Origin: Candidatus Hydrogenedentota bacterium
GTDB taxonomy: Bacteria > Hydrogenedentota > Hydrogenedentia > Hydrogenedentales > SLHB01
Reading direction: 5' to 3'
Length of the DNA: 36,768 bases
NCBI GenBank assembly: GCA_020847495.1
Contig: JADLCA010000579.1
Coordinates: 1-36,768, forward strand
A program made the position numbers and the translations under genes. Of the stretch, positions 15,136 through 18,193 are shown in pieces. The notes beneath the pieces were generated by a model, which was given only the letters and a program-made list of their open reading frames with translations, was not told the origin of the DNA and did not search any database. Each line of letters opens with the position of its first letter. Positions within the stretch are counted from its first letter, which is position 1.

Positions 15136-16890
15136 CTAACCTGCCCGTCGCTGAGGCATTTCGTCGTAGGTTCGCCCGTTCAATTCCCGCCCGGCCCGCT
15201 TCTTATTCACACCGCCCCATTGCTTGAAGAAGAAGGCGACTTTCGCCTGTTCGCATTGACGCTGAATTTCAACGACCCACCGGGCATCCATGGGCCGTGC
15301 GCCTGGGCCGGACTCTCCACCGACGATTACCCAGTGAATACCGGTGAGGTTGAGCCCTTGGAGCGGCCCCAGTAGAGGTTCCAAGGAGAGGAATTTCGTT
15401 TGCGCGCCGGTATTGCGCAGATCGTCGATTCTCGACACGTACTTGGCGTTCTCAACGCTCACGCCCATCCAGACATTGGAAGGCCAGTCCAGCTCGGGCG
15501 CCAGTTCACGTAACCGCTCCGAGCGTTTGGTAAGCACCTGAAACTGATGCCACTCTGCCCGGCGCATTACGTCGAAGACTTGCACGATGTAGTCTCGGGG
15601 CACTTTTTCGTGGAACAGATCGCTCATGGAATTGACGAAGATGCGTTGAGGTTTCCGCCAGCGGAGTGGGAGGTCCAGCATGTGGGGATGAAGCGTTACC
15701 TCGAAGCCATCGCGATAGTTCGGCTGGCCCATCGCCTTCAATCGCTTCGCCATGCGCTCCGCATAGCAGTTGTGGGTTGCGATTCCTGCCGCAATAAAAG
15801 TGCCGCTGGTAGTTTGGATGTCCACTAGTTGGCGATTGCCTACACGTTGAACTCCGTCTATCCTGGAGCCATGTTTGCCTGGAAATCTTCTACCGTAGAA
15901 GTCGGTCATTTTTCGGGTCATCGCCGGTTGAATTGCGGAGAGAAAACGCAACTTCTCTTCGATTGCTCCGATTACTCGTTCACTTCGCCCCGTGGAGCGG
16001 CGAAAATCCTCTCGTTGTGATTGGAACCCAAGGTCGCCGATGAAACGCTTTGTTACATCCAAGAGACCATTCTCTTTCGTTTGGTGGAAACGCAGATTCT
16101 TTCCTGTGTATGAACCGTCTGTGTCAAAGAATCCGGCAAGAAAACCTGCTTTCCAATTGACATCGTCGCGCTCTGGCATGCAATAGTCTCTGACTTTTAC
16201 GAGATTGGCCATGCGCCGCGTTTCAATCTTCAGCATCGGCGCCCGATTCTCCCGTGGATAAAGTTCGGAAGAACCACCATCAAACGGTTGTATTTCAATA
16301 CCATCACAGCCGACAACTGCAAGCGCTTCATTTAATCGATTGAGAATAGGTTGATCGGATGACAGAACCGCCACGCGCAAATACGATTGCTTGGTTCCGC
16401 GTCTACCCGATCCGTCGATACGAAATGTTCCGTCTCCTCCAACTACACCCGCTAAGTAACCAGAGAGATACGGCTCTGTCTTGGATTTACACAGCGACGA
16501 CGGCATCCCAATATCGACGAGGCTCGTCTGAAGCGAAAGGCGTTCTGCTTCTCGCCAATACGGACGTACTCTAGCGAGAAAACGGTGATCAACACTGGCG
16601 ACGATTTTTCTTCCTCCAACAGCGATCTCGACAGATTCGGCAATAGTGGACCATGCGTCAACTACCGTGGCTCGCTCATAGACACGGTTTTGACCGAGTC
16701 TCGGCGATTCGGTGAATCCGACAACTTCATCGCCCGGTGTTATCTCGCCTATAGGTTTCCATCTCATATCGACCATTAGCACGGGCGTAGTAGGGTCGAG
16801 GCAATTTTTGCATCCCGGACTGATCTTCGTGCAGCCGGTGACCGGATTCCAGGTGGATTCCGTCCACTCGATGGAAGAATTCGATCCCAT
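15136..16890 (-). CDS. phage Gp37/Gp68-like (DUF5131) three-Cys-motif protein interrupted by an intein
   Basis: N-extein [29 protein letters not shown] and C-extein [54 protein letters not shown]... form a continuous 239-aa DUF5131 protein when the 345-aa insert is removed. SD GAGGAGCGAG upstream. Confidence 0.92.
15769..16803 (-). mobile_element. LAGLIDADG-type intein (345 aa, codons 30-374 of the host ORF)
   Basis: Cys1 block [31 protein letters not shown]; block B-like [13 protein letters not shown] (SxxH); two LAGLIDADG motifs [15 protein letters not shown] and [15 protein letters not shown]; block [22 protein letters not shown] followed by +1 Cys. Confidence 0.94.
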
Positions 16891-17101
16891 CTATCTCGCT
16901 CCTCGCTCACGATACTTGTTGTAGATATTCTGAACTATATGCCTCCCGAACTAATTCGCCGAAGTGAAAAGGAGGTACTATGCAATCGACCCAGTTCAAT
17001 TGCGCGTGGTACCGGCGGAGGAACATTGGCACGCTCGGCAACTATCAAAAGAGGCTCAAGGTCGTTTCTGCAACGAGGCTGCGACTGCATTTACGAGACA
17101 A

Positions 17102-18193
17102 TCACGATCCAGGCTTCTTCGCGCGTCGCGAATGTTGCTTCGTCTTTCTAGCGTGGGGAGGCTGTTTTTCAAGGCGTTTCATTGCCTCCACGGCCTTGTC
17201 GAAATCGCTTGACGGGTGCTCGGACTCGAGCCTGCGGCGTTCCGCGTCGTACCGGTCGAATTCACGATGGGCATGCTCCTGCGCAAGTTCGTGAGAGATA
17301 GTTCCCGCGTGCCTCAGGATGTTGCGCTCGTTGAATTCCAGAAAGGCGTCCAACTTACTTGCCCAGTCGATCATATGCATGGGCCGGTGGCGGCGGGCTT
17401 GGTCTTCGGCATAGTCAAGGTACATCGTGACGACGCGATTGAGTTCGCGCAATTCTTCTTCCGCCAGATAGTTCTTGGCAATGGTCACATCTGATTTGCG
17501 GATTGGCCCGTGTGGGGCGTTCTTCCACGTCGTGAGACCCATGTTCTGTTTTGATGCGTCTGCCCGTTGAACGATAAGCTCGGATGCGGTGTGTCCGTGA
17601 ATGGCCCAATGCAGCTTGTTCTGCACGGCGGCATAGAACGACTGGGTGACCCCGGCAGACGGATTGTAGTCAATGCTTGTCGCGTAGATATCGGTTATCT
17701 TCTGATAGAAGAGGCGCTCGGAGGCGCGGATGTCGCGAATACGTTCGAGCAGTTCATCGAAGTAGATGTCGCCGAAAGTCTGGCCGGCCTTGATGCGCTC
17801 GTCGTCGAGGGTGAAGCCCTTGACGAGCAACTCAGAAAGCCGGGAGGTGGCCCACTGGCGAAACTGGGTGCCTCTCTCCGAACGGACGCGGTAGCCGACA
17901 GCGAGAATAGCGTCGAGATTGTAGTGGTCCACGAGGCGCGAAACCTGCCGTTCGCCCTCCATTTGAACTATTCGGAATTTCCTAATAGTTGACAGGGCAT
18001 CCAGTTCTTGATCGGCGTAAATATTTGATAAATGTTCGTTTATCGTGGGTACGGTTATCCGATACAGCTCCGCCAGCGCGCGCTGCGTCAGCCACACGGT
18101 CTGTCCGTCGAGGCGGACTTGAACGCTCAGGGCGCCGTCCTGGTAGATGAGGAGTTGCCCTTCGGGCGGGGTCTCTTTTAGTTGACCAGACAC
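17102..18193 (-). CDS. virulence RhuM family protein
   Basis: LLIYQDGALSVQVRLDGQTVWLTQRALAELYRITVPTINEHLSNIYADQELD...VDHYNLDAILAVGYRVRSERGTQFRQWAT is the characteristic RhuM-family N-terminal region. Confidence 0.93.
   Translation of the reverse strand: MSGQLKETPPEGQLLIYQDGALSVQVRLDGQTVWLTQRALAELYRITVPTINEHLSNIYADQELDALSTIRKFRIVQMEGERQVSRLVDHYNLDAILAVGYRVRSERGTQFRQWATSRLSELLVKGFTLDDERIKAGQTFGDIYFDELLERIRDIRASERLFYQKITDIYATSIDYNPSAGVTQSFYAAVQNKLHWAIHGHTASELIVQRADASKQNMGLTTWKNAPHGPIRKSDVTIAKNYLAEEELRELNRVVTMYLDYAEDQARRHRPMHMIDWASKLDAFLEFNERNILRHAGTISHELAQEHAHREFDRYDAERRRLESEHPSSDFDKAVEAMKRLEKQPPHARKTKQHSRRAKKPGS

Follow-up and report, generated by a model that had tools for sequence, protein, structure and literature searches.

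A very probable mobile intein ahead of the third cysteine of a DUF5131 protein in a Candidatus Hydrogenedentota bacterium

The window, i.e. the whole 36,768-nucleotide stretch analysed (contig JADLCA010000579.1 of assembly GCA_020847495.1), carries on its minus strand an open reading frame of 584 codons (15136..16890) for a precursor of the DUF5131 (phage Gp37/Gp68-like) family, which is interrupted by an in-frame insert of 345 residues (residues 30-374; 15769..16803, minus strand; CLDPTT...GIATHN). The Pfam family PF07505 is matched with E 2.8e-101 (338.6 bits against a gathering cut-off of 28.9), in two stretches that flank the insert, within which lies a LAGLIDADG_3 domain (PF14528, E 6e-08). 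Alignment with intein-free relatives delimits an N-extein of residues 1-29 (16804..16890, minus strand), containing Cys20 and Cys27, the latter being the second cysteine of a CX6CX2C motif and occupying position -3; the C-extein (15139..15768, minus strand) opens with the third cysteine of this motif as its +1 residue. Upstream of the host gene is the 3' end of tcmP, a remnant of about 17 codons (16891..16942, minus strand), followed directly by a RhuM-family gene (17102-18193, minus strand; PF13310, E 2e-117), which is the PADLOC candidate PDC-S05. Two defence-candidate genes thus stand side by side.

The insert has the block structure of an intein throughout, all on the minus strand. Block A (13 residues, 16765..16803) supplies the nucleophile Cys1; block B reads SVDH (16585..16596), i.e. 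S-x-x-H in place of T-x-x-H; the two 16-residue LAGLIDADG motifs (16420..16467 and 16105..16152, the second associated with the PF14528 match) keep their acidic residues, as GGDG and DTDG; block F (RQLVDIQT, 15811..15834) has its Asp; and block G (GIATHN, 15769..15786) ends in the penultimate His and terminal Asn, with Cys following. The anatomy described in the earlier note, comprising the reading frame, the limits of the insert, Cys1, SxxH, the two LAGLIDADG motifs, the terminal His-Asn and the +1 Cys, was found in full, as was VDI in block F, and the note's size estimates of about 27 and 39 kDa are close to the masses predicted for the spliced host (27.6 kDa) and the intein (38.4 kDa).

Very probably, the insert represents a class-1 intein that is intact and mobile, carries a LAGLIDADG homing endonuclease and occupies a site common to a small family of DUF5131 inteins. 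On this identity, first proposed in the earlier note, the sequence profiles, the structural match, the precise empty sites and the existence of a same-site family agree. When residues 30-374 were compared with intein profiles, as that note had advised, NF038136, the NCBIfam model for intein-containing Rv2578c radical SAM proteins, matched the insert from end to end (E 2e-25); it also matches all six same-site inteins. The whole-protein score of the window reading frame, 101.9 bits, falls under the curated cut-off of 700 bits, which is indicative of a homologous intein in a different host. The intein_Nterm model TIGR01445 matches four of the six same-site inteins, weakly; in the profile search the window intein received neither a TIGR01445 nor a Pfam Hint call, other members of the family being called weakly. 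Cys1, the catalytic Asp of the first LAGLIDADG motif and the junction THN|C are invariant in 6/6, as is the block B His, which is preceded in all six by Ser where Thr is usual, a variant that we counted as a TxxH block. The residues critical for splicing thus appear intact, as had been supposed.

An AlphaFold model of the intein (built on a five-row alignment; pLDDT 69.6, moderate confidence) has its best PDB matches in precursors of the PI-SceI intein (miniprecursor 1ef0, E 5.8e-10), followed by I-DmoI (TM, target, 0.74). The model points to a Hint (horseshoe) fold, and a LAGLIDADG homing endonuclease is predicted from the two motifs with their acidic residues. Hint folds are also known in non-splicing families, and the insert might in principle be a bacterial intein-like, autocleaving domain; given that the terminal His-Asn, the +1 Cys, contiguous exteins and the homing endonuclease are kept in all six cases, and that the empty sites are exact, this alternative is scarcely credible.

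The empty sites are documented at both DNA and protein level. G002, which belongs to the same genus, carries an uninterrupted DUF5131 gene, with which the window sequence minus the intein can be aligned across 768 bases (83% DNA identity), gap-free at and near the junction; the C-extein is 90% identical to the corresponding uninterrupted protein. Alignment with 22 intein-free homologues likewise reveals a host that is contiguous across the junction once the insert is removed, including the 25-residue stretch that restores a DUF5131 N-terminus, as had been anticipated, and the insertion is therefore clean. The genome from which the window derives is fragmented (800 contigs, 81% complete), a condition under which assembly or binning might join the DNA of two organisms; however, the insert keeps the reading frame and lies at precisely the codon boundary that is occupied in five other genomes, and both exteins match the same-genus gene, so that an artefact of this type is extremely improbable. 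A protein match to the host was obtained in 27 of the 60 relatives searched, with the intein in the window's genome only, and none of the 67 other genomes of the phylum that were examined contains the intein. One intein-free DUF5131 copy in a relative (L028; G010:C40:11644-12261) has two in-frame TGA stops and is likely a pseudogene.

Five further inteins, 68-43% identical to that of the window, occupy the identical codon boundary in DUF5131 proteins of Actinomycetota, i.e. in an Actinomycetota MAG (L040, 68% identical), a Streptomyces plasmid (L032, 48% identical), Micromonospora costi (L041, present also as the IMG/VR viral contig L037), Nonomuraea basaltis (L042) and Frankia sp. R82 (L043). 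All the same-site inteins break the cysteine motif directly ahead of its third Cys. Scans of viral contigs returned a single same-site intein, which is the M. costi locus, and none of the best 80 viral DUF5131 genes has an intein-sized insert. PLSDB lists no coding gene for the intein-bearing reading frame on the Streptomyces plasmid (L032:2839-4674), perhaps because the interruption caused it to be missed or called a pseudogene. Shorter or partial relatives were also encountered. On one viral contig (L038:323-2548) a terminase-like protein is broken by a related intein of 258 residues, and haloarchaeal plasmids encode Hint-like LAGLIDADG proteins related to the window intein (L033:2962-3957, L034:2983-3966 and L035:2863-4011). 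The latter were rejected as inteins because they are free-standing reading frames with neither Cys1 nor a terminal His-Asn; they are possibly intein-derived stand-alone endonucleases.

Comparison of exteins with inteins indicates that the intein has moved and the host gene has not, apparently by transfer across phyla, because the window extein nests among intein-free relatives while the intein is sister to that of the actinobacterial MAG. The extein tree pairs the window with G002 (100/99) and places it among intein-free sequences from its own phylum; the intein tree joins the window to L040 as its sister (100/99). The extein tree has two long branches and is uncertain in detail beyond the window-G002 and L032-L068 pairs; on it, the presence of the intein requires at least three changes. 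Pairwise identities for extein and intein, respectively, are 59% and 68% (window and L040), 55% and 70% (L042 and L043), 40% and 60% (L032 and L041), and 67% and 52% (L040 and L032). Base composition marks the window intein as foreign: its GC content is 50.6% and its GC3 47.0%, versus 58.4% and 70.0% for the C-extein, and intein and extein GC3 are much closer in the other five hosts than in the window. The hand counts on which the earlier note had based its suspicion of recent acquisition were near right, the intein lines at 16021, 16081 and 16441 having 46.7, 46.7 and 48.3% GC, and the extein lines at 15241 and 15481 having 58.3 and 63.3%. That suspicion stands for the host lineage, in view of the foreign GC3 and of the 67 phylum mates that lack the intein, but does not extend to a recent separation from the sequences found, among which the donor is not present. 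Between the window and L040 inteins pS is 0.82, i.e. saturated, such that dN/dS is not computable, and pN is 0.20, with the Hint and endonuclease parts behaving alike; saturated pS with low pN implies that selection has kept both parts, and that L040 is not the direct donor.

These results bear on whether the endonuclease still cuts. The intein could splice without cutting, in which case splicing would by itself be enough for a functional host gene, and the pattern of presence and absence would reflect vertical inheritance or carriage followed by losses; sequence cannot separate an active enzyme from a recently inactivated one. We nonetheless regard this as quite unlikely, since the acidic residues of both LAGLIDADG motifs have been retained, purifying selection acts on the endonuclease part, the intein and extein trees conflict, the intein GC3 is foreign, and vertical inheritance would take many losses within the phylum. 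An intein that remains mobile is the preferred reading.

The chemical nature of the interrupted site is of interest with respect to the function of the host. In 30 viral DUF5131 homologues the three cysteines of CX6CX2C and the subsequent Tyr-Ala are invariant, C-Y-A past the junction being invariant in DUF5131. We also considered, and dropped, the proposal that no stretch of DUF5131 is more conserved than the insertion site, because the ten residues around it hold rank 70 of 225. The spacing CX6CX2C departs from the classical radical SAM motif CX3CX2C. A model of an intein-free viral DUF5131 protein (pLDDT 91.3) has the radical SAM enzyme spore photoproduct lyase as its top four PDB matches, albeit weakly (E 0.003-0.007, TM 0.44-0.49), and TIGR04471 (radical SAM pair protein A) matches an intein-free homologue with E 1e-23, under its cut-off. 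A family-profile search covering 395 genomes of actinobacteria and 24 others identified 12 inteins of more distant relationship (E 1e-31 to 1e-55), each of which lies in an Rv2578c-family radical SAM protein, with the pattern ACxY|CFAR, ahead of the third Cys of CX3CX2C. Profile alignment of the DUF5131 and Rv2578c exteins spans the motif only (NPxxGC..C..C[YF]A), placing TWNPxxGC..GC..CYA of DUF5131 on TINPYRGC..AC.YCFA of Rv2578c. Because the relatives of the intein precede the third Cys in Rv2578c proteins, and because of the matches to spore photoproduct lyase, DUF5131 is probably radical-SAM-like, with the intein +1 Cys as a likely cluster ligand; we infer that the three DUF5131 cysteines bind a [4Fe-4S] cluster.

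Both splicing and DNA cutting by the window intein are deduced from its sequence. The precursor would be translated as one 66-kDa chain, in which Cys1 of the intein would start an N-S acyl shift and the +1 Cys, i.e. the third cysteine of CX6CX2C, would perform the transesterification; cyclisation of the terminal Asn would then release the intein and join the exteins to give the 27.6-kDa DUF5131 protein with its motif uninterrupted. Once excised, the intein (38 kDa) is predicted to cleave DUF5131 alleles that lack it, at the CX2|CYA codons, and, after such cutting, would copy itself by double-strand-break repair.

The position of the insertion gives this putative mechanism a further aspect, since Cys(-3) and Cys1 form a junction-spanning CXXC in all six DUF5131 and all 12 Rv2578c inteins. 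MoaA is a radical SAM enzyme. In the intein of Pyrococcus abyssi MoaA, activity is controlled by a disulfide that links Cys(-3) with Cys1, according to two reviews (PMC3922620, PMC10663303), and by analogy it might be speculated that a Cys27-Cys1 disulfide could stall splicing of the window intein under oxidation. Taken further, the intein would be a redox-gated switch, kept to protect the cluster motif and splicing only once this disulfide is reduced; this reading is compatible with that of a mobile intein, to which it adds a host benefit. The conserved CXXC and the MoaA precedent favour it, but the CXXC follows automatically from motif plus insertion point, and is not independent evidence of selection, and most DUF5131 genes do without an intein, so that we hold it to be possible, though unlikely. 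More doubtful still is the wider conjecture that one homing intein lineage moved between distant radical-SAM-type families, its endonuclease recognising C-x-x|C-[YF]-A codons, with each junction acting as a redox trap that keeps an oxygen-sensitive Fe-S protein (here belonging to a candidate anti-phage system) from maturing until the cell is reducing.

The host gene's partner, tcmP (three-Cys-motif partner), adjoins DUF5131 in G002, L040, L032 and a Streptomyces canus plasmid, and among the relatives searched it occurs in 14 genomes, each time on a contig also bearing a DUF5131 match. PADLOC lists the pair as PDC-M41A and PDC-M41B, a candidate anti-phage label only. The window differs in that no complete tcmP lies beside DUF5131, as the PDC-M41 pair has it: DNA homology to G002 begins at 16942, the remnant resembles the C-terminal peptide of the complete TcmP of G002 (L069:363-1187), and tcmP was not found elsewhere in the window's 81% complete genome. 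Truncation of the partner may mean that the host gene is itself decaying, and the intein could persist in a gene that no longer serves a purpose. The C-extein looks constrained (dN/dS 0.05 against G002), though most of this divergence may predate the loss of tcmP.

The overall results widen the range of hosts invaded by inteins to include DUF5131, a candidate anti-phage component that occurs very commonly on phage contigs. They also reveal that members of two intein clades sit at corresponding points of three-cysteine motifs, a location that could by its nature render splicing redox-dependent; we consider the finding of moderate importance, chiefly because of this repeated use of the third-cysteine position. 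The intein is of a known kind of mobile element, whereas its DUF5131 host and site are new, being undescribed in the literature searched; the earlier doubt as to whether this family was a known intein host was justified, in that none of the papers searched mentions DUF5131 with inteins.

The closest named family to the window insert is that of the Rv2578c inteins (NF038136), which have LAGLIDADG motifs and a similar length, and are likewise inserted before the third Cys of a three-cysteine motif (C-x-x|C-[FY]-A), but which differ in the host family and in the host motif, CX3CX2C rather than CX6CX2C. The DUF5131 inteins form a clade of their own (99/98). We dropped the proposal that they and the Rv2578c inteins are sister clades, since the AU test does not discriminate between this arrangement (p 0.49) and one that joins DUF5131 with phage inteins (p 0.48); the two clades may be sisters or may have arrived at equivalent sites independently. 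The actinophage inteins (Gordonia phage portal, Mycobacterium phage terminase) belong to the same broad lineage, with about 29% identity over the intein ends (tblastn), but have other hosts and sites and are shorter (269-275 residues). PI-SceI, the yeast VMA intein, shares the Hint plus double LAGLIDADG architecture and is the best structural match, although it is only 13-15% identical, is larger and has another host. The P. abyssi MoaA intein, as described in PMC3922620 and PMC10663303, shares the combination of an N-extein Cys at -3 with the intein Cys1; it is archaeal, and the likeness concerns the described geometry of its junction.
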